Shown here: positions 7,237 to 56,161 of the stretch, one piece after another
Numbering within the stretch: the stretch's first letter is position 1
Layout: each line of letters starts with the position of its first letter
NCBI GenBank assembly: GCA_026874595.1
Contig: CM049321.1
Span: 9,174,979 to 9,238,978, forward strand
Source of the DNA: Sipunculus nudus
Taxonomy: Eukaryota; Annelida; Sipuncula; Golfingiida; Sipunculidae
Reading direction: 5' to 3'
DNA: 64,000 nucleotides
Notes under the pieces: generated by a model
The model's input: only the letters and a program-made list of their open reading frames with translations
The model's database searches: none
What the model was told of the DNA's origin: nothing
Position numbers and translations under genes: made by a program

Positions 7237-10200
7237 TTGATAACTCCGCTGAGGTTATCAGGTAGTACGGGGGTCCAAAATAGGGGGGGGGGTGACCAGT
7301 TAGTTCGGGATTTAAGGCGGAATCATCTGGTATTTATTGGATCCAGGCGGGTTTATCAGTTAGTAAGGGGCCCATGTGGGGTTGGTCAGGTAGTCAGGGG
7401 GTCAAAGCGGAGTAATCAGGTAGTTTGGGGTCAAGGCGGGGATATCAGGTAGCCAAGGGGCCCAAACGGAGTTATCAGGTAGTTAGGGGGTTCAGCGGTT
7501 AATCAGTTATTAAGGGGTACAAGGAGTTAACAGACAGTTAATAAGTCCACACGGAGTTATCAAGCAGTAAGGGAGTCCAGGCCGAGTTATCAAGTAGTGA
7601 GGGAGTCCAGGCCGAGTTATCAAGTAGTGAGGGGGTCCAGGCCGAGTTATCAAGTAGTGAGGGGGTTCAGGCGGGGTTATCAAATAGTGAGGGGGTCCAG
7701 GCGGGGTTATCAAATAGTGAGGGGGTCCAGGCTGAGTTATCAAATAGTGAGGGGGTCCAGGCCGAGTTATCAAGCAGTGAGGGAGTCCAGGCCGAGTTAT
7801 CAAATAGTGAGGGGGTCCAGGCCGAGTTATCATGTAGTGAAGGGGTCCAGGCCGAATTATCAAGTAGTGAGGGGGTCCAGGCCGAGTTATCAAGTAGTGA
7901 GGGGGTCCAGGCCGAGTTATCAAGTAGTGAGGGGGTCCAGGCCGAGTTATCAAGTAGTGAGGGGGTCCAGGCCGAGTTATCAAGTAGAGAGGGAGTCCAG
8001 GCGGGGATATCAAGTAGTGAGGGAGTCCAGGCCGAGTTATCAAGTAGTGAGGGGGTCCAGGCCGAGTTATCATGTAGTGAAGGGGTCCAGGCCGAGTTAT
8101 CAAGTAGTGAGGGGGTCCAGGCCGAGTTATCAAGTAGTGAGGGGGTCCAGGCCGAGTTATCAAGTAGTGAGGGGGTCCAGGCCGAGTTATCAAGTAGAGA
8201 GGGAGTCCAGGCGGGGATATCAAGTAGTGAGGGAGTCCAGGCCGAGTTATCAAGTAGTGAGGGAGTCCAGGCCGAGTTATCAAGTAGTGAGGGAGTCCAG
8301 GCCGAGTTATCAAGTAGTGAGGGGGTCCAGGCCGAGTTATCAAGTAGTGAGGGGGTCCAGGCCGAGTTATCAAGTAGTGAGGGAGTCCAGGCCGAGTTAT
8401 CAAGTAGTGAGGGGGTCCAGGCTGAGTTATCAAGTAGTGAGGGAGTCCAGGCGGGGGTTTTCATGTATTGAGGGGGTCCAGGCCGAGTTATCAAGTAGTG
8501 AGGGAGTCCAGGCCGAGTTATCAAGTAGTGAGGGGGTCCAGGCCGAGTTATCAAGTAGTGAGGGGGTCCAGGCCGAGTTATCAAGTAGTGAGGGAGTCCA
8601 GGCCGAGTTATCAAGTAGTGAGGGAGTCCAGGCCTAGTTATCAAGTAGTGAGGGAGTCCAGACCGAGTTATCAAGTAGTGAGGGGGTCCAGGCCGAGTTA
8701 TCAAGTAGTGAGGGAGTCCAGGCCGAGTTATCAAGTAGTGAGGAAGTCCAGGCCGAGTTATCAAGTAGTGAGGGAGTCAAGGCCGAGTTATCAAATAGTG
8801 AGGGGGTCCAGGCCGAGTTATCAAGTAGTGAGGGAGTCCAGGCCGAGTTATCAAGTAGTGAGGGAGTCCAGGCCGAGTTATCAAGTAGTGAGGGAGTCCA
8901 GGCCGAGTTATCAAATAGTGAGGGGGTCCAGGCCGAGTTATCAAGCAGTGAGGGAGTCCAGGCCGAGTTATCAAGTAGTGAGGGAGTCCAGGCCGAGTTA
9001 TCAAGTAGTGAGGGGGTCCAGGCCGAGTTATCAAGTAGTGAGGGAGTCCAGGCCGAGTTATCAAGTAGTGAGGGAGTCCAGGCGGGGATATCAAGTAGTG
9101 AGGGAGTCCAGACCGAGTTATCAAGTAGTGAGGGGGTCCAGGCCGAGTTATCAAGTAGTGAGGGAGTCCAGGCCGAGTTATCAAGTAGTGAGGAAGTCCA
9201 GGCCGAGTTATCAAGTAGTGAGGGAGTCAAGGCCGAGTTATCAAATAGTGAGGGGGTCCAGGCCGAGTTATCAAGTAGTGAGGGAGTCCAGGCCGAGTTA
9301 TCAAGTAGTGAGGGAGTCCAGGCCGAGTTATCAAGTAGTGAGGGAGTCCAGGCCGAGTTATCAAATAGTGAGGGGGTCCAGTCCAAGTTATCAAGCAGTG
9401 AGGAAGTCCAGGCCGAGTTATCAAGTAGTGAGGGAGTCCAGGCCGAGTTATCAAGTAGTGAGGGGGTCCAGGCCGAGTTATCAAGTAGTGAGGGAGTCCA
9501 GGCCGAGTTATCAAGTAGTGAGGGAGTCCAGGCGGGGATATCAAGTAGTGAGGGAGTCCAGGCCGAGTTATCAAGTAGTGAGGGAGTCCAGGCCGAGTTA
9601 TCAAGTAGTGAGGGGGTCCAGGCCGAGTTATCAAGTAGTGAGGGGGTCCAGGCCGAGTTATCAAGTAGTGAGGGAGTCCAGGCCAAGTTATCAAGTAGTG
9701 AGGGGGTCCAGGCCGAGTTATCAAGAAGTGAGGGAGTCCAGGCGGGGGTTTTCATGTATTGAGGGGGTCCAGGCCGAGTTATCAAGTAGTGAGGGAGTCC
9801 AGGCCGAGTTATCAAGTAGTGAGGGGGTCCAGGCCGAGTTATCAAGTAGTGAGGGGGTCCAGGCCGAGTTATCAAGTAGTGAGGGAGTCCAGGCCGAGTT
9901 ATCAAGTAGTGAGGGGGTCCAGGCCGAGTTATCAAGTAGTGAGGGAGTCCAGGCCGAGTTATCAAGTAGTGAGGGGGTCCAGGCCGAGTTATCAAGTAGT
10001 GAGGGAGTCCAGGCCGAGTTATCAAGTAGTGAGGGGGTCCAGGCCGAGTTATCAAGTAGTGAGGGGGTCCAGGCCGAGTTATCAAGTAGTGAGGGAGTCC
10101 AGGCCGAGTTATCAAGTAGTGAGGGAGTCCAGGCCTAGTTATCAAGTAGTGAGGGAGTCCAGACCGAGTTATCAAGTAGTGAGGGGGTCCAGGCCGAGTT

Positions 10201-11495
10201 ATCAAGTAGTGAGGGAGTCCAGGCCGAGTTATCAAGTAGTGAGGGGGTCCAGGCCGAGTTATCAAGTAGTGAGGGAGTCCAGGCCGAGTTATCAAGTAGT
10301 GAGGGGGTCCAGGCCGAGTTATCAAGTAGTGAGGGAGTCCAGGCCGAGTTATCAAGTAGTGAGGGGGTCCAGGCCGAGTTATCAAGTAGTGAGGGGGTCC
10401 AGGCCGAGTTATCAAGTAGTGAGGGAGTCCAGGCCGAGTTTTCAAGTAGGGAGGGAGTCCAGGCCGAGTTATCAAGTAGTGAGGGAGTCCAGACCGAGTT
10501 ATCAAGTAGTGAGGGGGTCCAGGCCGAGTTATCAAGTAGTGAGGGAGTCCAGGCCGAGTTATCAATTAGTGAGGGAGTCCAGGCCGAGTTATCAAGTAGT
10601 GAGGGAGTCCAGGCTGAGTTTTCAAGAAGTGAGGGGGTCCAGGCTGGGTAATCAAGTAGTTAAGGAGTCGAAGAGAAGTTTTCATGTAGTAATGGGGCCT
10701 AGACTGAGTTAACAGGAAGTGAGGGTGCCCAGGCGGGGTTATCTGGTACATAGGATGTTCATGTGGGGTTATCAGGTCGTAGGGGTCAAGGCGAGGTTAT
10801 AAAGTAGTTCGGGAGTCCAAGCGGAGTTTTCAGGTGGTCCTGGGTTCAAAGCGGAGTTAGCAGATAGTGAGGCGGTCCAGGCGGGGTTATCAGGTTATTG
10901 GGGGTCAAGGTTTGAGAAATCGGGTAGTGAGGGGGTCAAGGCGGGTTAATCATGCAGGTGATAAGGGGTCAAGGCGGTGTTATAAAGTAGTTAGGGAGTC
11001 TAAGCGGAGTTTGCAGGTGGTCATGCGGTCCAAGCGGATTATAAGGAGGTCAAGGGGGGGGGGGGGGGTTTGGTTATCATGTTTTTTAGGGGGTCCAAGC
11101 GGAGTAATCAGGTAGTGAGGGGAGTCTAGGCGGGCTTATAAGGTAGTGAGGGGTCCAGTAGGATAATCGGATGGTAAGGCAGTAAAGACGGGGGTTATCA
11201 GGTAGTTAGGCGGTTCAAGCGGAGTTATCAGGTAGAAGGCGGAGTTATCAGGTAGTGAGGGGTCCAAGCTGAGTTATCAGGTAGTGAGCGGGTCCAGGTA
11301 GGGTTATCAGGTATTGAGAGGGTCCAGGCGGGAAAATCAGATAGTAAGGGGTCCAGGCGGAGTAATCAGGTAGTAAGGGGGATCCAAGGTGGGGTTGTCA
11401 GGTGTTTAGGGGGTCCGAGCGGGGTTATCAAGAAGTTAGGGGCCCAGGCGGGGCTATCAATTAGTTAGGGGGGTTCAGGCAGGGATACCAGGTAA
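7237..11495. repeat. 30 bp minisatellite, about 4.2 kb
   Basis: The core (about 7560-10650) is about 103 copies of a 30-base unit built on GGCCGAGTTATCAAGTAGTG followed by AGGGAGTCCA or AGGGGGTCCA. The flanks (7237-7560 and 10650-11495) are increasingly degenerate versions, as expected if repeats homogenise in the middle and decay at the edges. Because 30 is divisible by three, long open frames exist on both strands (decapeptides such as VRESRPSYQV, and LITRPGLPHY antisense). They have no splice or start context and I treat them as by-products. Variant units show higher-order duplication of 450 bp (15 units). One strand is strongly G-rich. Confidence 0.97.
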
Positions 11496-13039: not shown

Positions 13040-13052
13040 TTAAGTAAGGCAG
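13040..13052 (-). CDS. vWD-repeat gene candidate last exon
   Basis: The acceptor ATACTTTCAG at 13053-13054, read in the phase set by exon 5 (AG|C), gives SCLT and a TAA stop. SW....SC is how many D domains end, which supports the join, and the summed coding length (1332 bases) is a whole number of codons. The exon is tiny and lies 2.4 kb from exon 5, so a missed exon in between or an alternative ending is quite possible. The same acceptor also opens a different frame of 71 codons to 12838, which would need phase 0. Confidence 0.33.
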
Positions 13053-16000
13053 CTGAAAGTATTAAAATCATGTTGACGTTTGACGAAATGGTTTATAAAA
13101 TATCTAAGGATTCTAGGTGATATATATATATATATATATATTTATTTTTCGTATCTTGTCTGTTAGTCAACTCTTTTACATTTTCATTTTCTTTTCATTT
13201 ATTCAGGTTTAAGCTTAGGTGGCATAGATCATGCTGAACCACATCTAAAATAGAAATTTAAGTTTTGCCTTATTAATTCATTAACTGTTAGAAGCTGTCA
13301 TGCACGGTTTTGTATAGAGTAAAGGTGTTTTTTTCTACTTTTTTTGATTAAGTCAGCTATTCACTTTCCTTACATGTAGAATGAATGTAATTTCTTGCTT
13401 TCGCTGCGTGCCTATTTATAAACTGTAGGTAATTCCTGCTGAGAAAGGTTCTGTTCTTTCTGACGGATTTATAACCCTGTTTTATCAAAGCTGTTAGAAA
13501 ACACGGTACCTTTGTTGAGAAACAAAACCCCTTGTAATTGAAGGTTGTTGGTTGAGTATAAAAAAAACAACTAAAAAGTCACTAATTACAAAACGCCTTT
13601 TGTAAAACGCTAGTTGGTCAGACTTGCCGCCAGATATCCTTGTTGAATGCGTTTGCATTATTTTGGCGGGCGCCCCACATGCTATAAACACGTGGATATA
13701 AACAAAACAAACAGCCTGTGTAACGTTGGATCGACGATGTCTGGCATATTTTTATTAAAGGTTCAAGCAATTATCTTTAGTTAATAATTGTCAGTATTGA
13801 ATAGACCCCTTTAAGGGCTCATACACATTTTTCATATGTGTATAATCTCACGTTATACATGAATTTTGCTTTAAAGGGACATAATCAGGAACAATATTAT
13901 GCATGTTCTTTCACACTATCAGTTCACTTTTGCTTTATACAAAAGTTTCCAGACCAAAAATCAAAGCACAGGTCTCAGAACCTCCCCTAGAGCTGTTTAA
14001 CGCCTTATTATGGTTCTGAGTGTAAGTTAACACAGTCCATGTGTGTCTGTTCACAATAACAATGCCGCGTTATCGTAGTTCGGTCCAATTTTGCGCATGC
14101 GTGACATATCCCAAACAAGGAGTAGTCCATACCTGAACATTCTAGACCTCTCAAATATCTCTGCTAGATGGACATTACGGTCTTTCGGCCGAATGTAGAT
14201 TCATCGTAGGAGCTGTCGCATCAGATTTGTACAATATATTTTCCTCGGCCTCAGCTGAAATGACACGGGTAGCGCAGTGTGAGCCCGTGTATCGGGACCC
14301 AGGCCTGAGCCACCGCAACGTGCGATGTTTCAGCCAGCGGGAACATGTGTTACATCAGGGCATCTCACGGTTGACAGGTGTTGCTGCGCGGGCGATGCAC
14401 GGAGTCCTATGCGCTGTGCTTAGGTTTACGCCTGTGATCGCGCCCGGTCAATTGTTTTTAACATTCGTGTGCAGGAGGATGCCAACGGTTTCAGGGTAAT
14501 ATTTTGGCAGGTACCAATTCATTGCAAAGGGAAGAAACTATTTTTCGTGTTAATGCAACATGCTTCATGGGCGATTAGGCCCCTTAAAACAGCAAAACCA
14601 TCCCGATACATGGACTTGATATGTCCAACAATCTATTTCTACATGATTTTGTGTGTGATGTAAACACAGTACACGTATGTTTGTTTACGATGACAGGACT
14701 GCGTGACTGGAGGTCAGGTCAAGCACTTAGTCGAAACTTCTAAACAAGTAGAAGAAATATAACAGTAGAAGCACCAGTTAGAAGCTCGAAATCAAGATAT
14801 GTGTAGTTGCGGTATACGGACACCAGGTGGCGTGCTATATGTTTATATTTGGCACACTGATCGCGCCCAATATACTTTTTTTCCACGTATGCAGGAGTAA
14901 TATAACGGTTTCATAACGAAATACCGGTAGATACCGTAAAATATTTTGAGGATAAAACACTGTATTTTAGGTTTATTTAACATAACTGGTATATGAACAA
15001 GTCCCTTTAAAAATTACTTACACACTGCTACTATTAAGGGAAGCTATCTTGATTTATAGTTTAACAAAATGCAGGAATAAACAAAGGATCATCGAATAAA
15101 TTTTCAATATGTTCTCCTGAGTATCAATTAATGAATCGTATATGGAGTCAATATATGCTTTTCTAGCAAGACAATCAAGTCAAAGACTATTTTATGCTTT
15201 AATTTAGTTCGTCTCATAACAATAAATTATATTTTATCTTATCTTACTCTCGGGACAAGAATGAAGCTTTATAATGTGATCACATATATGGTTCCACTCT
15301 TTTCCTAAGTTTATCCTACTTTTAAATTTGTGTTTTTGCTGTTTTTAAATTAAAAATTTCCTACTTATTTTTACTTTTGATTCTATTTTCTTAGTTATGT
15401 CCTTTTTCATAAGGGTTTGTTGGACAGCCAATCATAATTTTACGTAACGATAAAATGACGTCATACTGACCTTTGATCTTTGACCCAGCTGTCACAAAAA
15501 GCTTGGATGCTCTGCGCTGTCTCGCCTTGGCTGGTCACGAGATCGTCATCCGCGCTGAAATATTATACCACCAACATCAGGAACCAAACGGCTCTCAGAA
15601 AGCGCCTAACCCCCCCCCCCCCCCCCCCCCCCATACGAAGATAATTTGCAGCCAAAATTTAATCCATAAGTATCAATATATCTTGTTAACAATATAATTA
15701 ATATCTTCCCATTACTTTATAAAGAGTTCTTGAAACATTCGTAACAACGCGTTTTACGCAAAGGATACACAGAGTTGCAAACCTATATAAAAAGCAGAGA
15801 TGTCATTTTTTGATAATTATTCCTTTTAATATATCTTAAATATTAAGTACATTCAAAATGATTTATAACAAATATATGAAGGGACCACGGTGGATTTAAA
15901 ATTATATCAGGCATATTTTTGACATTATAAATAATTGGTGTGTGCCGATGTTTCCTTCAGAAAAAGGATTTCTACACAAATTACCCAAATGCTCCAGAAA

Positions 16001-19000
16001 ACATTTATAACACATTTCACTTATAAAGAACACAATTATGATGTCAAATTACATGAATATGTCTACTTCTATCACTTACAGACGTGTCATTGATTAGCTC
16101 ACATTTATTCTGGGCTCAGCTCATGCTCATATTCCAACATAATGATATTTGAAAAATTTTAGGCGAAAATTTACTGCTGTGTAATATATAATTAATGTAA
16201 TTGAGCTCAACAATGAATTCCTCAGGAATCATTCTGTGATTTCCTTTATGAATCAATCGGATGAGTTTAGTATATTTGCAGATAAAATTATTGCAAAACT
16301 TACGTTATACATAAACAATGCAAAGGTGTTATTTTATAGAACTATTTTACTTCTTAACTATGTTAAGAGAAACATTATTTCGTTTTAAACGTTGCAATAT
16401 GGGCCTCCTTGCCAGATAGATTCTCGCAAGAATGGTGTCCTCGGAATAGTTTCATGCCCTATTCCCTCGCCCCTATCGAACCTTATACCATATTTGTTTC
16501 TCTGTGTTTTCCGAAACCGCTTTTGGGACGTGTTTTTTTTGCGTACACACTAAAAACCGAATATCACAGGTCGCTGTTCGAAATTATGGATATATACCAC
16601 TAGTTTATGCAATGGACACAATGGTGTTTTGATAGGTTTGTCTAACGAATAACATTGACTATTATCTTTCCCTGGAGAAAAGGATTTGTTTCCTTTGACG
16701 TTTTTTAGGTTCTAGGTTTTCTAGGAAAAAGGGAATGATCACAATAATGCAATGCACCTTTTCAGTGAGCATGCGCATTGCGATTCATTCTTGTCTGTCG
16801 CGCTGGTCAAATAACCCAGCGTAGCAGGGTTGTCAGGTGAAATCATTTGGAAGCAAAAGTCTAAGGTTCGTTATTGGTAATTAAGTATGCCATCATTGTT
16901 ATTATTAAGAACAATACCAACCTAATTCTGATGTTTATCATGTTAACGGATTTTGCAGATGTGCAACAGTGTTATGCTGACGTTATCTTATCTCAACCAC
17001 ATGGAGATTTTTTTTTCAGTATAAAAAGATTCTCCACGACATTTGTGTACCTTTCGCTTTACTTCCGATGTTACCCGATCACTGATGATGTCACATAGGG
17101 ATTTTCCATATTTCCCGATAACTCCCGATGTCACATCGGTTGTGAGTTATCTCAATACTTACTTGCCGTTGTTATTACCGCAAAGGCCTTCCATTTGCCC
17201 GAAGTACTTTGATTTCACCCACAGCATCAGTCTTCTGTGGCCCCACGTGACTTCCATTTTGCCAGCCTTGCAGTTGATTGTAATAGACTGGCCCTTCTTG
17301 ACTATTTTTATAGCTTTGGCCTTATAATCAGTGAAGCTGTCGAGAGGGTGTGGATCAGAATTCTGAAAATCAAAACCAAAAATATTGTTTTATTTATTTA
17401 TCTTACATATAAGGAAGAGGTCTATTTTATGTATGCCACTGCGTTTATTGTGTAATGGTGAATGTATTGATACATACAGTGGAACAGCTTCCTGGATAAT
17501 GCAGATAGAGCAAGCCAGATATCGGAATTATCGCGAGTGACCAGAATGAACGAACTGCTGATTATAAATATCGACATGAAATAACATTTGTTCCATCATT
17601 AACATTTGGTTGAGTTCAACTCCTGTACGTATGCACCCGTCAAAATCTTTAAACACAAATACTTATTGAAGGTTTAAAAAACCATATAGCAGACAATCGA
17701 GAAAAAAAAAAACATGCCGGTTTGAAGAAACATTTTCCGAGAACATTTGCTAAAATGCCGCGAAATTCCTGCTCCTTAAGTAATTATAATACCACTCCCT
17801 GAATCCACGCCGTCTGTCCGTTGTGACCATCTGTGTGTGTTAGCCACTGACGAAGCTCGTATTAGCATGGCAAGAAAATGCCGATGATTTTCGTCAAGTA
17901 TAATACTGAAGATTTTTATTTATCAATTAGCGTTTTACAGTTATTTCTCCCGCTTGAAGGTCCTTGCACGTCAGGATATTCCATATATTCCATATATGCC
18001 ACGTGGGTGTTAACAAACCCATATGTATGTTCTAAGAAAAATTAACTTTCTTCAGTTTAGTAATATGTTCTTCAAACTTACACATATGACCTGCAGTAAT
18101 ATGTTTTCCAGCTTGAATAGGGGGGGGGGGGGGGGGGGGAGGGGGTGGAGCGCCACCGTGGGGTTATTTCGGAAACTCGAAAGATTTTGTCAGGAAAAAC
18201 AAGACAACTGTGTTGATCCATGTGTAATAAAAAAAAACGAATTTTAACAAAATTTTGACATACTTTGAATGAGGCCTTACTTTATACTCCGGATATTTTT
18301 CCAGTTACACTAGGATTATGACGTATAGCTTGCGAAGGATATTGAAGAAGCGATGGATACACCACCTGTTTTCCCAACCCGGAGGCCTGTGTTTTGAAGA
18401 GGTATTTCTCGTTTGACTCACAAAATTCTAGTTTCATTTAAAAAGCAATCCAATCCTTATAAAAATGCCTTGAGGAATAAAATATCAATTTGAATAGAAG
18501 AAAATTTACGGATAAATATAATTCTGACATTTGTAATTAGATTTATGAGAAATGTACAATATTATGGAGTCTTGTGGTTGCCTGTATCTCCGTTACACGT
18601 CAATCCTCGTCGTGAGACCCGCATAGTATGGCTACCGGTATATGAGCATTCGAACATGCCTTTGTGCACGAAAGTGTCTCTCAATTATTAAATGCGCAGG
18701 AGATGGATTTTGTTTAATTCCAATTCTAATAATTCTAAAAAAACTCACACACATCGGTATATGTCGTCACGGGGCTAAGCCAGATCGAACGGTTCAATTT
18801 ACCCGGCAGGGCTTTATGAGGTGTCAAGATAAGTGGGACAGCCGAGTTCAATAGCCGACCACGCCATTTTGCCCGTCTGACAAAGAGGGTCTATATACTG
18901 CCAGAGTGTCGCACTGTAAGACTTGATGAGGATACAAATGTTTAATTCAGTTTTGATAACGCCTCATTGGCCTATGACGAAACAACTTGCTAACGTTGTC

Positions 19001-22000
19001 AAATGGCATAAACTCAAAAGCTGTGTCGTTTCATTGATCGGGTTCGGCTCTCGATTGGCATGGCTGGTCTCCACTGCTCGGATCGGCGGTGGGGATGCAT
19101 ACTCCTCCTGCCTCTGTTGACGGCCTCATACGTTTCCTTGCTCATACGTTTACTATCAGCTCCATAAATTAAAATTGACTTAAATTAATCAAAATTTCAC
19201 CTAAGAAGCGCCTTGTGATAAGGTCCCAGACCTTAGTAGTAGCTTTCTATAGCTTTTCCAGAGTTGCTTGGTCAAACCAAACTTCTTCTGTCTGCCTGAC
19301 ACCCCTTCATTGCCTACAGGTACGTTGCCACTTTTAATAAACCAGACCAATCGTTAGATATGTTTGCGCACACACCTACCATGTGCGAGAAAATTTCTGC
19401 TTTAACTCTGTATATTGTTCAATTTCTGAACTTATTAATACAAACATGCATGTCTGGCTACAGTTTACTGGATATTAACCAACGTCACAGGAAATGACGG
19501 GTTACCATTGAGACTGGATTTTCACTTTAGTTTTTGAGTTCACATGTATAATTTTGTGCTAATTCATAAATCTGTGCTTATTGTTAAGATGTACAACAAT
19601 ATTGATGCAACTGAATGTAAGGCCGTTGCAGCGCAGTCCCCAAATGACTTTTGTCACAATTCCAAGGTTTAATGGCAACGTCAACATTGGGTGTGGAAAG
19701 GGAGTATGTGTGAAAACATTTAGAATAAAAATTAGGCGGTGCAATTTGGGGTATATACCAGGTCTGAAACGCTTGAATACGCTGTGTCAAGCAGAATCAA
19801 TTAACAGACTGATGGAAAGTGTCAAAAAAATGAATGACGCTGTGCCTTTATAAGTACCAATTCGATGGAACCAATTTTACCAATTGTACGTCGTACACGG
19901 TACATGGAAAAGCCAGAGGGAAACAATGTTACCAATCGCACGCGGTGTAAAATAAATGGAACAGTCTCATGAAACACCGTGGAACCTGGTTTTGAGAGAC
20001 CCGCGCGGACAGGTCCTGTGGACAGTTGTAAATTCCAGCTGTGATCCCCAATAAATTCTTACTACGGTGCATGATTGTGGAAATTGCGGGTGTCCAATGT
20101 ACCTAAGTCATCCAAGAAAATTTCGTAAACAAAATACGTGTACCGGCGAGGTTTTCAATTGTGTTCCTCATTAGTGACCGGCCGGTTTATTTTTTTCGTC
20201 GTGTTCTTTTTTCAGTTTTATCTGACGAGCCTGATAATGTATTTTTAATAGTCCCCAGCCTTAAATAGAAGCTTGTTTAGACGCCCGGTCAAAGCAGGGG
20301 CTGAAAAAATAAACGCCCGGGCGTCTGTTAAAAGAAATACGGGAGGTATAAACAGTTCAAAATATTAAATTGACATTACTTATCTGGACTGCAGGTGTAA
20401 TCCATTAGTTTTTCCAAATTAGCGTGTAGCACCAAACCTAATCGGGAACACATTAATTTTTCGGGGGGGGGGGGGGTTAAATGGGGAGTGTGCCAAAAGA
20501 TTTTATGGTCTGGCTCAGAAACTACATAGTGAACAGATTACAAAACATAGTGGTCTTTCTTTATCTCAAAACATTTTGCTGTTTGGCCTCTTAAAACAAA
20601 GATAATAACAATTCTTAGGTAAACCAATAAATCTCGATACAAAGTCAAATATCGTCTTGTATCACTCTCATCATGTCCTTTTTTCGATACGTTGACGATA
20701 TTCTATCATCCGATAGATACGACATTTAACAACCGAAGCTGAAAGTTCATTCCGTACAAAACGGGTTAATCATCAGCTGATTGCCTTAACGTTAAGAAAC
20801 GACTGTTATAAAATAATCTGATTTGCATTTCAATATTACCGGAGATTTCTGATTGGGAATATAGATTATAACAAATCACAAATGTGTTTTATCATTACAT
20901 ACCACGTTTTACTTTATTTATCTACTGTATTTTGCAGCCGTTTCTAAACCGTTGCTTCATTTGTTCACGCTTTCGCCAGGGGGCGTTTCTACACATAACG
21001 AACCTTTTCCAATTATGAGTAATGGGACGGTAGGGACTACATGTGTTAACCGTCGAACGCTGGAAGCAAAATTTGTCACAGTTCAAGAAATCATCCCTTG
21101 TTTACATTGCACATGCAGATATGTTTCGTATATTATAAGGTAAACACCAAGAAACGCGTCTAACCCCCAGCAACGCTTTGAAGCGCAAAGAACGAGAGGA
21201 AAACACACAAAATAAAATAATATACATCACAAAATGGCTATACCTACGCCTCCGCGCGTCGTTACTGCAACTTCCGTTTATATTGCGCACAAAATGCATG
21301 TAGGATCGCACTCAAAAATGCGTGAAATTGTGTGGAAACGTTAATGAGACAGGATACCCCTGAAAACGTGGCCTTTATCGAATCCAGTCGCTTAGACAAC
21401 AGTAACATGTGAAGCGGTCTTAATTTTACTCACAACGGTGACAGCGGTAGGTGACAGGCTGTACAATTGGTCCCCGATGTGGATGTCGATGACCTGGATG
21501 ACAGTCTTCCCGGGATGGCGTGTGGAAGGTGTCGTCTTCACGTATATTGCGAAAGTCCCTTTAGTGTCCGCCGCAAATTTATACTCGCATATCCCGGAGC
21601 ATGTGAAATTGGGTGACCCATCAATGTTCGAGAAGTGAGGATCTCCAAACGCGATGCAGGGTTTGGAATCTGAAAATGAAACAGAACAAGACAGCAACTA
21701 AATATGAAAGAATAAGAAAGTCTTAAATATGAATGAATAAGACGGAACCTATAAACGAAGATTTAAAAGAAGGTATTTATTATCTCTGCCATTTTGTGAC
21801 AGTAGGTCGAGGGTTAACCAGTGGTTGTTATCTCTTGCAAGATTTGACGGGAAGTTAAGGTTGTTGTATTTTTACCAGTGTTTCTTATCTTAACCAAGAT
21901 TTGAAAAGAGGTCAAGTTTTCAGCATTTTCTCCTAACGAAAGGATTTTTATGCCGTTACCATTTTACCTCTATTAGACCCAGAATAATTACAATGACTAA

Positions 22001-24751
22001 AATCGTAAAAGGTTATATCTTTACCTTTTCCCTCGCCGCTGTCAGAACCAGAATCAGAATTGCTTCTACCTTTCCCTTTTCCCTCGCCGCTGTCAGAATC
22101 AGAATTGCTTCCACCTTTTCCTTTTCCTTTGCCACTGTCAGAACCAGAGTCAGAATTGCTTCCACCTTTACCTTTTCCCTCGCCGCTGTCAGAACCAGAA
22201 TCAGAATTGCTTCCACCTTTCCCTTTTCCCTCGCCGCTGTCGGAACCAGAATCAGAATGGCTTCTACCTTTCCCTTTTCCCTCGCCGCTGTCGGAACCAG
22301 AATCAGAATGGCTTCCACCTTTCCCTTTTCCCTCGCCGCTGTCGGAACCAGAATCAGAATGGCTTCCACCTTTCCCTTTTCCCTCGCCGCTGTCAAAACC
22401 AGAATCAGGATTGCTTCCACCTTTCCCTTTTCCCTTGCTTCTGTCAGAACCAGAATCAGAATTGCTTCCACCTTTCCCTTTTCCCTCGCCGCTGTCAGAA
22501 CCAGAATCAGGATTGCTTCCACCTTTCCCTTTTCCCTTGCCACTGTCAGAACCAGAATCAGAATGGCTTCCACCTTTCCCTTTTCCCTCGCTACTGTCAG
22601 AACCAGAATCGGAATTGCTTCCACCTTTCCCTTTTCCATCGCCACCACGACCACCTTTGCTGCCGACTTTACGGGTATCCCGCACTTGACGACGTAGCGT
22701 AACTTCTGCAGGGTTACTTGGTTCCATGGCATCATCATCGACGTCTTGGTCAGCTTTGAGATAAATTAAAAACGAGGTATGTGAAATGGATGAATATTTC
22801 CAAAAACGTGAATACGGTTACAAAGTAATACTCGACTACATGCACCTTATATATATACAATTATAAAGATACATACATATATAAAAATAAAAATAAACCT
22901 GAGAATAAATGTCAATGTAGCACTAAAGTCATGCACCCTCAAGAAATTTGTACCGTCTTGTATAATCGTATCGAGAAGAGGGTAAAAACTACAACATGTT
23001 AATTATACTATATTTTTTAGCCATTTCATATAAATAACACAGGGCTAACCTTTCAAGTGAGTGCAATAAATACTAACCTGACAGGACTTTTTGTAAAGTG
23101 GCTGTTGTAAAAGAGACATGCGTAAAAGATTTTATTTTATGTGGAATACTGCTGCTGATTTATTGCTTAATTGGACAATTAGTTTGATAGCTGCAGTAAA
23201 TAAATAACATGTAAAAATTTGCTGCTGATTTATTTTATATATCTTTTTTTGGTGGAGGTTAAATACGTATATGTCCATCTGAAGAATCCCATTCAGGTTT
23301 CGGATTGCGTGACAGGGCAGTATCACGTGTTTCCTCTCATTTTATATTCTGGCGTTAACCAAGCCCGGTGACTCTTCTCCTGCGGGCAATACCACCGAGG
23401 AACCCCCGAAAGGCGCACTTGCCTGTGAGTGAAATACGGCCTTTGGGCAAGACCTTCCCATTAAGCCTACAGGGCACTCACCCTGGGCGGGGTCGACCGT
23501 AAGAATATCTCATCGCCTCTCACATCTTCAGGGTCTAAGTCCTGTACTCTACCCCTGAGCCACGGAAGATGGTTATTTATTTTATACTTGACAAATTAGT
23601 TTGATAGTAGTAAATAAGTGACATTTCTCTGGTGCCTTTATTCAGTATACCGGATTACAGTACAATATTAACAACATTTTCACCATGTGTCGTATTTTGC
23701 TATGTGTGTATTGTACATCATATTATATCTAATTAGGTCGATAATATCTTATCCCTCCTCACATGATAAGATTTTTTTTCTTGATTTTCTATCCTACGTC
23801 AGTCTACGATATGGTAAAGGTAAAGGTAAATTTGGGGTTATAGTTTGATATCATGGCCGATGTCGATCCCAACTTACTTATAGAACACAATGGAATGTGC
23901 TGCAACGGACGGTCATCCATCCTGTTGCATTGATGCCGTATTAAATAACCGATAATCGTAACATCTGGCTTCGAATGATGAGTTTACGTAAGATATACAT
24001 CTGAACAACCCACACTGGAATTACGTCTCTATGGAAACGAGTCATTTGCTGTATCGCCCACAAATTGGACAGTAACCCGTGCAATCAATGTTTGTATTCA
24101 AGTGGTCAGATATTCGAAAAACATAGTGATTTACCAGGATGCTTAGCTAAAAAGGATTTTTTTTTCCGCACATGGTAGGTGTTTTTAAAAAGTACACTGA
24201 AAAAAGCTAACGATTGGTTTGGTTTATGTTTAAGTGACAACGTGCCTTCGGCCATGACTCATTGAGAGAAATGATGAAAACATATGCATCCTTATGTAAC
24301 ATTTAAGTACGGTCCTTGATGCGAGATACAAAGGCACTCTGACGCTGGTCGTAGACTCTAAAATGTCAGAGGGTCAAAATGGCACTACTTTTAAACATAT
24401 CCAAAAACCTACGTTTTTTACGATTTGTTGCGAATGGAACTCTCGATTGGTACGATCGTTTTTGCTTATTGTACTTAAGAAAGTGCAAGAAAATCGCACC
24501 ATGTAAATTTTTCCTAACTAAACTTTCCGATCTTTTTTCTAAGCCATGGCGCGTCATAATGTTTGAACATGCCCAATTACGGCAAAACCATACGGTTTGT
24601 TACGCTTTTATACGCTACAGTTTTCTACAATTTTCTAAGACATAATCGAAAAAAAATAGTTGTAAATTGCATCGTACATACCATCACTAAATGCATTAGA
24701 CAGCAGGACAAGTATCATGATTGCCAGGACGGCGATGCTGGGCCTCCCCAT
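13040..24751 (-). CDS. secreted Ser/Asp-repeat plus von Willebrand type D protein (whole gene, exons below)
   Basis: Coding segments in transcript order: 24751-24682, 22753-22025, 21669-21434, 17362-17163, 15554-15471, then tentatively 13052-13040. All introns are GT-AG and junction phases are 1, 1, 0, 2 and 2, each consistent with the next exon. The predicted 443-residue protein has a signal peptide (about 1-22), a charged linker with RRQVR and TRK basic clusters (24-66), a 200-residue low-complexity repeat (67-266), and a von Willebrand D domain from Cys271 to the SW before the end. Family knowledge: D domains occur in mucins, von Willebrand factor, zonadhesin and many invertebrate matrix proteins, where they mediate calcium-dependent assembly. 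The repeat is rich in acidic Ser motifs like those of mineral- or mucus-associated proteins. A shell, byssus or mucus matrix role is an inference. No C8 or TIL module follows, unlike mucins, unless further exons were missed. Confidence 0.8.
13121..13141. repeat. (TA)n microsatellite
   Basis: Short TA run read directly. Confidence 0.9.
15471..15554 (-). CDS. vWD-repeat gene exon 5: end of von Willebrand D domain
   Basis: The acceptor ATAATATTTCAG joins exon 4 in phase 2 (AA|C = Asn), giving GNNNGNADDDLVTSQG and then AFCDSWVKDQ before the donor CAAAG|GTCAGT. In the family, GNxNG is followed by two or three Asp that complete a calcium site, and the domain closes with F..SW. Both features are present. 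The exact phase fit and the family match together make this exon secure despite its 84-base length. Confidence 0.9.
15610..15632. repeat. poly-C/poly-G tract
   Basis: About 23 consecutive C on the plus strand, just upstream (in transcription) of exon 5 of the minus-strand gene, within its intron 4. Confidence 0.95.
17163..17362 (-). CDS. vWD-repeat gene exon 4: C-terminal core of von Willebrand D domain
   Basis: The acceptor TTTGATTTTCAG and donor GGCAA|GTAAGT bound 200 bases that enter in phase 0 and leave in phase 2. The reading contains KAGKMEVTWGHRRLMLWVK and then YFGQMEGLCGNNNG. The V.W.g...l.V.v...Y.g...GLCGN.NG pattern is diagnostic of the D domain; the GLCGN loop includes a Cys conserved in the family. 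It lies 4.1 kb downstream of exon 3 across a large intron. Confidence 0.93.
18121..18139. repeat. poly-G tract
   Basis: About 19 consecutive G on the plus strand inside intron 3 of the vWD-repeat gene. A shorter G tract lies at about 20463-20476. Confidence 0.95.
21434..21669 (-). CDS. vWD-repeat gene exon 3: N-terminal half of von Willebrand D domain
   Basis: The acceptor TTTCATTTTCAG and donor ACCGTT|GTGAGT bound the exon; it enters in phase 1 and leaves in phase 0. The product starts DSKPCIAFGDPHFSNIDG, the signature opening of a D domain (C..fGDPHy.tfDG), followed by NFTCSGICEYKF, matching the usual G.C.Y.L segment. The rest (FAIYVKTTP, VIQVIDIHIGD) fits the alternating beta-strands of the family. 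The intron upstream is only 355 bases, tying this exon closely to the repeat exon. Confidence 0.92.
22025..22753 (-). CDS. vWD-repeat gene exon 2: twelve Ser/Asp/Lys repeats
   Basis: The acceptor TTTATCTCAAAG leads into ADQDVDDDAMEPSNPAEVTL, a basic stretch, then twelve units of GGSNSDSGSDSGEGKGK. Ten have 17 residues, one is short by two, and the last is cut by the donor GAAAAG|GTAAAG (phase 1). At the DNA level this is a 51 bp tandem repeat that has expanded without breaking frame. Each unit offers casein-kinase-2-like S..D sites, and nine of twelve offer an S-x-E site, the preferred context of secretory-pathway Fam20-type kinases (general knowledge). Acidic and Lys residues nearly balance, so the segment should be disordered and polyampholytic. 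The only hydrophobic residue in the repeats is one Phe in unit 5. Confidence 0.85.
23340..23575 (-). repeat. tRNA-derived SINE
   Basis: On the minus strand, CGTGGCTCAGGGGTAGAGT is a near-perfect A box. A decayed B-box-like GGTCGACCCC lies about 75 bases further on. The element lies inside intron 1 of the vWD-repeat gene in the same orientation. It is a pol III-derived repeat rather than a tRNA gene, because no cloverleaf closes around these boxes. Confidence 0.5.
24682..24751 (-). CDS. vWD-repeat gene exon 1: signal peptide
   Basis: From ATG at 24751 the exon reads MGRPSIAVLAIMILVLLSNA, then FSD, and ends at the donor GATG|GTATGT in phase 1. It is a classic signal peptide: Arg3, then a hydrophobic core of about 13 residues, then small residues at -3 and -1 (SNA or AFS). 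This ATG is the only one that gives the leader and joins exon 2 in frame. A TTGCAGCTGCAG string just upstream could be an acceptor, so the 5' UTR may be interrupted. About 200 bases further upstream lies LINE debris on the opposite strand. Confidence 0.8.
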
Positions 24752-26401: not shown

Positions 26402-26881
26402 TGACTGATATACCTATCTAGGCGGAACAACTTGTTGTTCCATGGTATCCAAGAAAGAAATGGACTTGAAAGCTGGGAAGAATGTGAACAGCAAGTAAAG
26501 TCAGTAATGAAAGAGAAAATGGGAATGAATTCAGAAACTGTAGATAATGAAATAAGTATCGAAAGAGCACACCGGTTACCTGTAAAATCTAGAGATGGAA
26601 AGCCAAGACCTGTAATTGTAAAATTCGCATACTATAAAGAAAGTGTCATGAAACAGGCTAGGCAAACATTGAAAGATTCAGATTTCAGAGTATCGCATGA
26701 TTTTAGTGAACATGTCAGGCTTGCACGGCGTAATCTTATCCCCTTTATGGTAAAGGCTAGAGAAGATAACAAAGAAGCTTTCCTATCTTTTGATAAACTT
26801 TCTATTGAAGGAAAAATGTTTAAATGGGATTTTGATTCAAATTCAAAAGTGATGGTAGGGAAAACTAAGAAAGATAAATAG
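26402..26881 (+). pseudogene. LINE ORF1 protein (RNA-binding), N-terminus lost
   Basis: The reading enters at RRNNLLFHGIQE, a motif typical of the RRM-like part of LINE ORF1 proteins, followed by ERAHRL, RPVIVKF, V.HDFS..VR..R and LSIEGKMFKWD, all characteristic. In LINEs this protein coats the element RNA. The frame upstream of RRNNLLF has a stop (TGA near 26401) and no ATG, so the usual N-terminal coiled coil is missing or frameshifted. The C-terminal end at TAG (26881) looks natural. Confidence 0.75.
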
Positions 26882-27129
26882 CGGTTAGGCCAGGGTCCAT
26901 GGTCATCTGAATATTTGAATGTTTATAAAACACTTGTGAAATCTGTATTGTTACCAGTTTCAGATGGTGATCAACTGGATGACAGATGTTTTTGAACTAA
27001 TTTCACCATACCAGCACTGAACTAACATTGAGACTGCACGTGCACCAGATAAACAGGTAACCACATGTTCACATACCAATTAAGGCACACTTACTAAACC
27101 TCATAGTTTATGTAATGATGAAAATAGTA

Positions 27130-27977
27130 CTGTAAACTTTGTTTCATGGAATGCTGGGGGTCTGAAAAACAAGATTTATTCTGCAGAATTTTTAGATTTA
27201 TTAAATGATTCTGATATATTGTGTATTGTGGAAACTTGGGCATCTTGTGAAGAAGAGTTTAACTATTACTTTGAACAATTTCTGTACTTTGCAAGTGTTA
27301 GACATAAAGTTGGCAGAGGAGGAATAATTGTATGTGTAAGAAAGAATTGCAATTTTAAGATAATCAACATTAAAAAATATACAGATATAATTGTTTTAAT
27401 CCTGGATGGTGAAGCTCTTAATTTGGATAAACCTGTTCTATTATTATGTGCATATATTGCTCCAGAGGGCTCAGTATTATATGAAACTTTAGATGAAAGT
27501 GATGGAATAATAAGACTGGAAAATATTATGGTAGATATTGTAACAAATTATGGAGATTTATATGTCATTTTAATGCGCGATTTGAATGCTAGGATTGGTA
27601 AAATGTGTGATTACATAGACAATGATCATTTAGGATTTATTGGTTTAAATGAAACTTACCCTTCGGATGAATCTCAAATGTGTAGAAATTCAAAGGATAG
27701 CAGGATTAACAAATTTGGTTTTTCATTACAACAGTTGTGCTGTGCTTTTAATATTCATATATTGAATGGTAGAATTCCACCAGATCTAGCAGGTGAATAC
27801 ACATGTGTCACACATGCTGGACAGAGTGTTATTGACTATATTGTTGCTAGTGCTGAACTCTTTGTTAAAATAGAATCTTTTTCTGTTTTAAGGTTAGATT
27901 TATCAGATCATTATCCAGTGAAATGTACAATAGGATTTGAATCTGACAAAAAGTTCCAGAAAATTTGGTTTCCATGA
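27130..27977 (+). pseudogene. LINE ORF2 endonuclease domain
   Basis: The order is FVSWNAGGLKNK, then DILCIVETW (catalytic Glu), then the strand GGIIVCVR, then DLNARIG (D.N block), and near the end DYIVAS and LSDHYPV (SDH block). This is the full set of exonuclease-endonuclease-phosphatase motifs of LINE ORF2. The D.N block is preceded by LMR where GD or GD-like residues are usual. A frameshift near 27965 ends the frame at TGA 27975-27977. Confidence 0.82.
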
Positions 27978-27999
27978 CTTCATGGATAAAGTACAAACT

Positions 28000-29420
28000 T
28001 AAAACACAGGCTATTGATGAACTTATAGATGATCATTTATATAATGAACATACATGTTATTTTGAACATTATGTTCAACAAGATGTGGATAAGGCTTTTG
28101 AATACTTGAACAGGGTGATACACAACTTTACTATTACTAAAATGTATAAGAAAAAAAAGAGTTGGTCACAGCCAGATTGGTGGGATGAGGATTGTGCACA
28201 AGCAAGCTAATAAAATTTTCAGCACTTGATGAATATGTGAGATCTGGTAATTTATATGATTTAAACATGTATAAAATGAAAAGACAACAATTTAAAAACC
28301 TATGTGATAATAAAAAGAAGTCCAAACAACAGTCTACAATGATACACTTATCAAATATTAAGAATATAAATGATTTATGGGTCTGTATTAAAAAGTACCT
28401 TAAGAAAGAGAATAGTGTTAATCATATTCCAGCAGACGAGTGGTTTAATTACTTTAGAGTTTTGCTGAATGAAAATAAAAACAATGTTAAAGAAGAATTT
28501 TGCACTATGGCTAACATATACTTCGAAAATAATTATAACAGGGGGTCTGTATGTGGGTCCCTTAACAATGAACTAACGGTATTTGACATAAGACATGCAG
28601 TAAATCAGATGCAAAGTGGTAAATCTCCTGGACCAGATGGGCTACAAGATGATATTATTAAGTCACTTTTAGAAATTATTTTGCCCTTATTACATACTTT
28701 GTTTAACAGTGTTTTCAATAAGGGATCATTCCCTGGTGAATGGAGTAAGGCAATCATATTTCCTCTACACAAGAAGGGTCCTTTAAGTTGTGAATAATAG
28801 GCTCTCTCAGTATGTGCAGGAAATGAATATTTTATCTGAGTCTCAAGGTGGTAATAGAAAGGGGTATTCTACCATTGATCAAGCATATGTCTTGCATGCT
28901 TTAGCTCAGAAATACTTAGTTAAAAGAAAAGGAAGGTTTTATCGTTTATATATTGATTTTGCAAAAGCTTTTGACTGTGTGCAACATAATTTATTGTGAT
29001 ATGTCTTATTGAAACAAGGTATAAATGGTAAAATATTAAATGTTATAAAATCAATGTATTCAAAAATGCAGTCTTGTATATTAACTGACGGTGGTCTTAC
29101 CGATTATTTTTTATGCTTATTAGGTACTAGACAGGGTTGCATGGTAAGTCCATTATTATTTCCTTATTGATTATTGTAATATGTTACATAGAAGTGATTG
29201 TAAAGGGATATATGTTAATGATAATCTTTCCAATGTAATGACTTTATTATTTGCAGATGATATGGTTAATTGTGCAGATACTGTAGGTAGACTTCGGCAA
29301 CAGATTAATCTCTTGCACAATTTTTGTGAAAAATATGGTTTTAAAATAACACAGATAAAACTAAAATTATGGTTTTTAGAAAAGGTGGTCCTTTACGAAA
29401 AGTTGAAAGATGATATTTAA
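28000..29420 (+). pseudogene. LINE ORF2 reverse transcriptase domain, broken
   Basis: Pieces in different frames give AVNQMQSGKSPGPDGL, GEWSKAIIFPLHKKG, then LYIDFAKAFDCVQHNLL (first catalytic Asp block) and TLLFADDMV (the ADD catalytic pair). Frameshifts occur near 27965 and 28200, and stops follow LL and FLK. Between KKGPLS (about 28788) and NNRLSQYVQ the usual PENYRGI...LLNVL segment is absent, whereas the older copy at 25255-25330 keeps it. This copy therefore carries a deletion of roughly 75 bases as well as point decay. Confidence 0.82.
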
Positions 29421-29676
29421 ATGGTAAACAGAAGTGGTTCCATACTTATCTTAAATATCTTAGTGTTACTTTCTGAACAAAATTATCCTGGTCAAAAACA
29501 CAACAACAGCAAGCTTTGCTAGCAAACAAAGCTGTATGTATGATTAAAAAATACAGTAAAAAGTGTAAATATGTTAGTACTAAACATCTCTTTTATCTTT
29601 TTGATCAAATGGTGGTACCAGTATTAATATATAGATGCGAATTATTGGGCTTTAAAAATCAGAAACTATAGAGAGA

Positions 29677-30441
29677 GTGCAGTACACATTTTGTAAATAT
29701 ATTTTAAATGTAGGCCAGAATACTCCAAATGCAGCAGCATTAGGGGATTGTGGCAGATTTCCTTTGTTTGTAACTTGTTTATTACGTTGTGTTAAGTATT
29801 GGGTTTATATGCCAGAACATAGGTATCAGAAACAAGTGCACAGTTTGTTGATGAATTTAGACAACAGTGGTAAATCAAATTGGGTATCTCATGTAAGAAC
29901 ATTGCTATTTGAGTCTGGTTTTGGATATGTTTGGATGGCACAGTATGTTGGAGATGTGAATAATTTTTTGAAAGAATTTGAAATTAAAATAAAAGACATG
30001 GCTATTCAAAACTGGCATAGTGATATTGAGTTGTGTAGTAAATTATATTATTATGGTGCTTTCAAATCTATGCTAACTCTTGAAAAGTATTTATATTGTA
30101 TTCCTAATAAGAAACATCGCATAGCACTTGCTAAACTTCGATGCTCCAATCATGAATTGGCTATAGAAATAGGTCGTCAAAATTATATATCTCGTGAAGA
30201 GAGGATCTGTAACAATTGTTTACATCATGGATATAATATTGTTGAGGATGAAGCTCACTTTATGCAAGAATGTATTTTATATAATGATTTGAGGATAAAA
30301 TACTTTAGACAAGACTTACATTACCCAAGTGAACAAAATTTTATTAAATTATTCAATTTAGACAATCATATTGAGATAATAAATGTTTCTGCATATGTAT
30401 ATTATTCCTTTTTGAGGAGACGAAGAATAATAGATGGTTAA
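29677..30441 (+). pseudogene. LINE ORF2 C-terminal region with Cys/His motif
   Basis: A 254-codon open stretch starts inside the thumb/connection region (QYTFCKYILNV...) and ends RRRIIDG. Its distinctive block is RICNNCLHHGYNIVEDEAHF followed by MQEC and Y..LR..YF, the C..C...H...C pattern seen at the C-terminus of many LINE ORF2 proteins, thought to aid nucleic acid binding. It is the longest intact piece of this ORF2. Confidence 0.75.
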
Positions 30442-54740: not shown

Positions 54741-56092
54741 TTATAGCAGCTGACGCAGGTGTGCACATTCACTAAAACCCTTCAAATCTTTTTTAGAGGT
54801 ATCGTCATATATACAATCAGGACTGTCACCTTCGATGTCACTTTTGTCAAATAGCTCATCAAACAGGGCATCATCCCTGGTGCCATCGAGCGCGTTGCTG
54901 ATAAAGCACTTCAGAAAGCCGGACGGACAGTATCCTCTGACACTTGTTCCCATGCTGTGCGGGTCCACGTAGAAACATGCTCCTTCGTAAGTAGTCGCCG
55001 TTTCCCGCATTTGTTGCACTCCGCTTTTCCATACATCAGCCACTGATTCCACTACCGCTTCATGTTGTCCTTCATCGGTTTAATTACTGCCACGTCAAGG
55101 GCTGCAGTACTGAGGCAAATCCACCAGGAATCACAGCGACTTCGATGAGGCGGCTCTTCAATTCATCCCGGACAATCTCAGTCAGGTACATCCTGCAGTA
55201 ATACCACACTAGAAGTCGACGCGCAGAGTTCCTTCCATACGCTTAGGGAAGGTGGCGCGATTCGACGCGATACAACCGTTCTCGTCAATATATCTTATTC
55301 TATTGGAATGCAATATGGATTCCACGTAACTTGATTTTCAGGTCCCATACTTCTTTGAACATTAACCAGGGTTTGCTCTGGCGACGACAGTGAGCACTGC
55401 AGTAAACCCATGCTTCTCCTATCCGGTTGATTTGACGTGGACACTCTGCGCCACAATCACGTCAAATGTTTTCTGCCCAGGCATATCAAATCTGAATGGA
55501 GTCTCGTCAGTGTTTAATAAGTCGATCAAGTTATACTGATGCCTTGTCGGCATATCGATATCGAACTTATGAAAGTTCACGATCTTTTATTCGGCATTAT
55601 CTGGAAGCTGACCAATAGAAGTGCGCTGGCGAGTCGACAGGCCGTGGCGTGCTTTGAAGGACCGCAACTATCCTGCACAGGCCTTGAACGAAATTTTAGT
55701 CGAATCGCGTCGTGCCTGGAGCATCAGGTCCTTCCCAGTTATAGCTATCCCGTCTTTACGAGCCTCAGTCAGCCAGGATATGAGTGATGCCTCAAGGTCC
55801 TGGTCCTGCACTTGCCGCACACCACCTTTCAGATGTTTGGCACTGCGGTCCAATGACTTAGTACTTACTTCTGTTTCCGCCAGCATCGAACTTGCCGCTC
55901 ATTTACCCCGAAGTAGTCAGCTGTCTGTCTGTTACTTCCTGAATCCAGGGCATGGGCCACGACGCCAAGTTTGAAGGCAACATCATATGCCCTGACTTCC
56001 TTTTGGTCCCACCCATGTCTCTTTTGAAACAAGAGTATTCGAGTGTAAATTTTTGCAGCGGTGTTATTCGTATGTCGATGATTGTAATTCAA
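54741..56092 (-). pseudogene. pogo-like transposase, broken
   Basis: Read on the minus strand in several frames. First an N-terminal helix-turn-helix: AYDVAFKLGVVAHAL, then TADYFGVNERQVRCWRKQK. Then a CENP-B-type DNA-binding region: LEASLISWLTEARKDGIAIT and F.ARHGLSTRQRTS. Then the catalytic start NTDETPFRFDMPGQKT, where the Asp of TDET is the first DDE acidic residue of the pogo/Tigger family. Finally a 104-codon C-terminal stretch with FDELFDKSDIEGDSPD. At least three frameshifts or stops interrupt it, so the enzyme is dead. The strand and order agree throughout. Confidence 0.82.
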
Positions 56093-56161
56093 AGAGTCAA
56101 GTGACCATAGACGGTTAGTGCAAAGCTTATATAGATGTCATGTACACACAGAAAGTATCAT

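Follow-up and report, generated by a model that had tools for sequence, protein, structure and literature searches.

A stretch of 64,000 nucleotides from the genome of Sipunculus nudus (contig CM049321.1 of assembly GCA_026874595.1, positions 9,174,979 to 9,238,978 of the forward strand; hereafter the window) carries on its minus strand, from position 24751 to position 13040, what is probably a real protein-coding gene that comes from the VWD-C8 family of its own genome and encodes a secreted component of an extracellular matrix, mucus or adhesive. Joining of the exons from the DNA gave six coding exons of 70, 729, 236, 200, 84 and 13 nucleotides in transcript order, separated by five introns that all have GT-AG borders and whose phases (1, 1, 0, 2, 2) are all compatible. 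The coding sequence of 1,332 nucleotides yields 443 amino acids and then a TAA stop; in-frame stops precede the ATG upstream, and the 1,332 nucleotides contain neither a frameshift nor an internal stop, with intact splice sites. An earlier prediction made on this DNA (the original prediction) had proposed five minus-strand exons with matching phases; both end points proved exact, and only the exon count had to be raised to six, with five introns. The leader, the 200-residue repeat and the single VWD domain with GDPHF, GLCGN and DDD, which it had placed in that order, were all found in the joined 443-residue protein. Gene structure, domain, the homology of cysteines and introns and the presence of the kinase family discussed below were established directly. 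The parts of the gene are the following, each derived by exon joining unless another source is given.

24682..24751, minus strand: exon 1, with the ATG and a signal-peptide-like leader MGRPSIAVLAIMILVLLSNAFSD, donor GTATGT, phase 1.
22025..22753, minus strand: exon 2, an acidic propeptide-like stretch with RRQVR and then the repeat array.
22026..22625, minus strand: the 12 units of the repeat, with the consensus GGSNSDSGSDSGEGKGK (coordinates worked out by hand on the joined exons).
21434..21669, minus strand: exon 3, first part of the VWD (Pfam profile positions 1-73), with C271, C290 and C294 (exon joining and Pfam).
21635..21646, minus strand: the GDPH codons, residues 275-278, a predicted autocatalytic Asp-Pro cleavage site (from sequence; mechanism as described in passages of PMC10880436).
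17163..17362, minus strand: exon 4, second part of the VWD (profile positions 92-144), with C376 and with C406 of GLCGN (exon joining and Pfam).
15471..15554, minus strand: exon 5, third part of the VWD, DDD ... FCDSW, with C432.
13040..13052, minus strand: coding part of exon 6, one base completing a Ser codon, then Cys (C441), Leu, Thr and the stop (exon joining, VWF alignment and comparison with C8 exons).

The original prediction had also proposed searching the D domain with the Pfam profile PF00094, and this search returned a match across nearly the full profile: residues 271-422 cover positions 1-155 of its 156, with E 8.4e-20 and a score of 72.1 bits where the cut-off is 22.9. Exon 3 alone matched positions 1-73 (E 3.2e-4; 21.5 bits, under the cut-off) and exon 4 alone positions 92-144 (E 2.8e-6; 28.2 bits, over the cut-off); exons 5 and 6 alone gave no PF00094 match. 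Exons 3 and 4 match consecutive parts of the profile, and the full match comes from the joined protein, so it is the order of the exons that makes the domain and no single open reading frame does, in agreement with the earlier statement that the multi-exon match is not visible in one frame. Comparison with the PDB by phmmer gave FCGBP, VWF and mucins as the best matches, the first being 8rde (FCGBP), with an E value of 2.4e-54 summed over domains and 40.6 bits for the best single domain. The GDPH motif is intact, and cysteines are present before it (C271), in GxCxY (C294), in GLCGN (C406) and after the final SW (C441). These four we take to be the canonical VWD cysteine set.

Evidence for the family origin of the gene came from its relatives in the same assembly (1.43 Gb, 153 contigs). 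Besides three exons of the candidate itself, the VWD query recovered five further matches, with identities of 27-32%; one of these five lies within a 283-residue open reading frame that looks vitellogenin-like by eye and whose domain is 26% identical to that of the candidate. The relatives that were compared (P0-P4 and Pmuc) are located at C16:18.27-18.30 Mb, C16:2.76 Mb and C15:54.10 Mb, and C8 exons are present in all three regions. Their intron phases and C8 exon starts were read by eye from genomic DNA. An intron of phase 1 precedes the VWD at five of the six loci, the domain of the sixth, Pmuc, sharing one open reading frame with its repeat; phase 0 follows the first VWD exon at all six, phase 2 follows the second at five of five (the exon end was not found at P4), and the last VWD intron is in phase 2 at the single locus where it was readable. 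Intron positions and phases through the VWD are thus common to the candidate and the VWD-C8 relatives, whereas pairwise identity to five of them is only 24-29% (Pmuc is outside this alignment), they have C8 and they do not have the candidate's repeat. Pmuc itself (C16:18293901-18295154, plus strand, ~18.294 Mb) is a mucin-like frame of 418 residues in a tandem VWD-C8 cluster, in which a long TTQAPPPPPPP repeat runs directly into the start of a VWD. Taken together with the candidate, this means that the combination of a repeat and a VWD occurs at least twice in the genome, with different repeats.

The class of mucus and matrix proteins to which the candidate belongs is well known, and the fusion to this repeat is what is unusual. 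It shares GDPH and the complete VWD fold with FCGBP, its top phmmer match, and, according to passages of PMC10880436, an isolated VWD likewise terminates human FCGBP; in contrast, FCGBP has 12 D assemblies besides that isolated VWD, whereas the candidate has one VWD, no C8 that was found and an unrelated repeat. It resembles the gel-forming mucins and VWF in the repeat adjoining the VWD, in a score of 39.5 bits to VWF D2 and in the aligned last cysteine. Unlike them, its 443 residues show no C8, TIL or CK by Pfam, and the Thr/Pro-rich region of gel-forming mucins is absent, with no Thr and two Pro in the 204 residues of the repeat stretch. Passages on oyster pediveligers report sequences with vWF-D and EGF domains, and vWF-D in an IgGFc-binding protein, as proposed bivalve adhesives (PMC6337334), and coral skeletal proteomes include VWD proteins (PMC4890752, PMC7853314). 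Where described, these proteins differ from the candidate in being multi-domain (EGF, NIDO-AMOP-EGF or vitellogenin type).

The same domain serves other purposes, and a non-structural product (an immune or clotting factor in circulation, a protein of the gamete coat or, like BMPER or RGM, a modulator of signalling) is unlikely without being far-fetched. According to passages of PMC10880436, VWD domains occur in proteins of the endothelium, the mucosa, fertilization and morphogenesis, and GDPH is present in BMPER and RGMB. However, the VWD is the sole domain found by Pfam in the full protein at E values up to 1, and a charged low-complexity repeat beside a VWD would fit matrix, mucus and adhesive proteins better.

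Residues 1-23 form the leader, whose strongly hydrophobic core has a mean Kyte-Doolittle value of 3.2 over residues 5-17; judged by eye, it supports the signal peptide and the secreted architecture of the original prediction. RRQVR in the acidic stretch is a possible furin-type site. Residues 63-266 (204 amino acids) are rich in Gly, Ser, Lys, Asp and Glu, and contain 12 units with the consensus given above, ten of 17 and two of 15 amino acids, which make up 200 residues (Tandem Repeats Finder: period 51, 12.4 copies). One unit is six bases shorter, in frame, and the last is truncated by the exon end. Lysine-rich blocks alternate with Ser/Asp blocks, and the net charge of the 204-residue stretch is -2. 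The donor of exon 2, AAAGGTAAAG at ~22028 on the minus strand, is formed from a repeat unit, and the identical ten bases lie 147 bases upstream, at ~22175, in frame within the array, where they are a possible alternative donor whose use would remove about three units and keep the frame.

The serines of the repeat are arranged in a manner that suggests stepwise phosphorylation. There are nine S-x-E sites, and units that carry Glu have serines spaced two residues apart, in a series that closes with Ser-x-Glu. By S-x-E and then S-x-pS, 38 of the 57 serines are reachable, against a maximum of 12 in 2,000 composition shuffles, a difference that is overstated by a shuffle that does not keep the periodicity of a tandem repeat copying one motif. 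The Fam20C family is present in the genome with 20 exon matches. In its Ser-x-Glu and stepped Ser-x-Ser acidic repeat the candidate is like Fam20C biomineral substrates such as DSPP-like proteins and the limpet shell phosphoproteins, from which it differs in alternating lysine-rich with Ser/Asp blocks, in its net charge and in that its phosphorylation is predicted. In the Lottia shell, 16 of 46 phosphosites are S-x-E or related, according to passages of PMC4094399, and pearl oyster fam20C is described as involved in shell formation in a paper that leaves the phosphorylation of matrix proteins open (PMC5824888).

A different modification of the same serines was considered. Glycosaminoglycans are attached at Ser-Gly-x-Gly with acidic flanks, and the repeat, which contains 10 SGxG sites, 21 SG dipeptides and acidic flanks in its units, could be a serglycin-like proteoglycan core that bears chondroitin or heparan sulfate and is anchored by the VWD. 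This is rather improbable: composition shuffles gave a mean of 6.3 and a maximum of 17 SGxG sites, so that the 10 observed are not clearly enriched, and S-x-S-x-E describes the pattern of these serines better.

For a matrix or mucus role of a lineage-specific protein, which is the best reading of the sequence, the following mechanism can be proposed, in which secretion, disulfides, cleavage, phosphorylation and role are all predicted. The C-terminal VWD would be the structured part, held by the two canonical disulfides C271-C406 and C294-C441, and the N-terminal repeat would be a disordered, near-neutral polyampholyte. GDPH would sever the bond joining D276 to P277, and C271-C406 would keep the pieces joined. 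A Golgi kinase of the Fam20C type would phosphorylate the repeat serines stepwise, producing alternating blocks of phosphate and lysine, and the phosphorylated repeat might bind calcium and adhere to itself. The VWD would then anchor or cross-link the chain while the repeat supplied charge-driven cohesion to a matrix, mucus or adhesive component. We infer the step from alternating charges to a cohesive matrix or mucus component, as also the matrix, mucus or biomineral use that the original prediction suggested. With seven cysteines, the VWD has one or more left over, which could form an intermolecular bond. Parts of the FCGBP study (PMC10880436) report that GDPH motifs undergo autocatalytic cleavage of their Asp-Pro bond, that a disulfide can hold the cleaved pieces of FCGBP together, that cleavage of the domain studied increases its resistance to proteases, and that a disulfide C4097-C4255 is formed, which is taken to be the counterpart of the candidate bond closed by C441. 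A more specific version, a self-processing phospho-polyampholyte in which the VWD would cut itself after folding, one disulfide would retain the repeat chain and phosphoserines beside Lys-Gly-Lys blocks would drive self-coacervation, is speculative and rather improbable. If it were true, the material could be released or made to set by reducing conditions, pH or calcium; such matrix-setting chemistry within a single chain of 443 residues did not appear in the open-licence literature as far as its titles, abstract starts and passages go.

In addition to the inflated serine count, several points weigh against this picture. The gene model rests on genomic sequence from one genome. Three further VWD cysteines (C290, C376 and C432) stand beyond the canonical four, and the partner of C271, C406, is one that we presume by analogy with VWF. 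In FCGBP, mutation of Q4094 makes GDPH cleavage partial, as described in passages of PMC10880436, and the alignment, in which the FCGBP residue was located by counting from the Asp of GDPH, has Ser291 and not Gln at that position, so that cleavage of the candidate may be incomplete, slow or partial. The repeat region is also open in other frames on both strands. Distinct purifying selection was not seen in the repeat over the 10 full units of 12 compared: the ratio of nonsynonymous to synonymous differences (pN/pS) is 0.36 in the coding frame and 0.38 in the +1 frame (2.4, 0.75, 4.7 and 0.45 in the others). Because the coding and +1 frames are so similar, the repeat by itself is no proof of coding, and this codon-level test was rejected as coding evidence, 0.36 versus 0.38 being unable to discriminate.

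Used as a query against the genome, the repeat matched its own array in two rows and otherwise gave two weak matches, interrupted by 8 and 2 stops, so no second open copy was found. A degenerate repeat unit considered at the start of intron 2 was discarded as weak, its local alignment score of 23 being reached by three of 1,000 shuffles and by five of 242 other intron windows. A stretch of intron 4 (~16400-16524, minus strand) aligned locally to the repeat unit with a score of 42, the top of the 242 intron windows, and may be chance or a stray fragment.

The end of the gene appears to coincide with the border between VWD and C8. In the alignments to VWF, C441, encoded by exon 6, stands opposite the closing cysteine of D2 and of D3. 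The C8 exons of the same genome start with one base followed by a Cys codon in all four that were read (of 53 C8 matches), and exon 6 starts likewise and stops two codons past the Cys. The alignment of C441 and the shared exon start give this 13-base exon two independent supports, and the simplest reading of the sequence is that the candidate may be a VWD-C8 ancestor shortened at the domain border. A search by tblastn with two C8 exons in the window and 10 kb on either side gave a best E value of 0.47, while the same queries found C8 in three of three control relative regions; in the genome-wide list (53 C8 matches, E up to 0.001), none lies near C16:9.19 Mb. The original prediction had called the architecture unusual, which holds for the fusion of a VWD with this repeat. 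A VWD without C8 is not rare in this genome: no listed C8 occurs within 15 kb downstream of 33 of 72 N-terminal VWD matches, and 39 of the 72 have one on the same strand. This tally includes the 72 of 125 VWD matches whose profile start is at most 3 and all 53 C8 matches, both lists being lower bounds; the candidate itself is absent from the list of 125.

That the gene is in fact longer, continuing through further C-terminal exons into C8 and more D assemblies, with the 13-base exon an artefact of the model, is highly unlikely. A very short coding exon is easily found by chance and the relatives have C8 exons close to their VWD exons, but the two C8 searches gave no match near this locus better than E 0.47 and exon 6 provides a cysteine that the VWD fold expects. 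Equally hard to credit is a decaying or unexpressed copy that has lost C8, the downstream parts and its functional product: the lack of a close paralogue (24-29% identity to five relatives) and of distinct purifying selection in the repeat would suit it, but the 1,332 nucleotides are free of frameshifts and stops, no damage affects the splice sites, the canonical cysteines or GDPH, the six-base shortening of one repeat unit stays in frame, and the last unit is cut by the exon end.

The sequence of the candidate suggests a VWD-C8 gene of the mucin/FCGBP class whose shortening fell precisely on a domain border and which was fused to a repeat with no other open copy found in the genome; it would illustrate clearly how secreted materials specific to a lineage may originate. 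The fusion of this repeat with a single VWD was not named in the open-licence literature, as represented by titles, abstract starts and passages and in part by the best 20 of 95 and the best 12 of 49 results; this agrees with, and lends slight weight to, the earlier description of the protein as apparently undescribed. If the predictions of self-cleavage and phosphorylation were true, a small protein with a single VWD would be a convenient test piece for the purpose of GDPH cleavage, which is described as still unrevealed in parts of PMC10880436.

The window has 533 open reading frames of at least 45 amino acids, and ten of these besides the candidate were searched with Pfam, of which two gave matches, to a retroelement endonuclease and to a Brinker-like DNA-binding stretch. 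Rfam at gathering thresholds found nothing in the window. The endonuclease match (Exo_endo_phos, E 3.9e-9) belongs to the frame at 27084-27974, within a row of frames at 26405-30438 on the plus strand that resembles a retroelement of the non-long-terminal-repeat type; three other frames of the row had no Pfam match. The Brinker-type match (E 3.7e-6) is at 55868-56137 on the minus strand and is perhaps derived from a transposon. A minisatellite extends over 7554-10892 (30-base unit, 111 copies, 91% match), and its degenerate flanks reach 7353 on one side and 11494 on the other; it is open in several frames on both strands, and openness there is therefore no sign of coding. Searches for Egg_lysin and for a molluscan haemocyanin gave no match, which does not prove that either is absent, and of two globin stretches compared with the PDB, one had no match and the other general ones. 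Elsewhere in the assembly, nine contigs (C60, C61, C62, C66, C72, C74, C75, C89 and C123) have long stop-free COX1 frames. The assembly probably includes symbiont or contaminant contigs, and C123, in the part that was read, is bacterial-looking, with 53% GC and long open reading frames.

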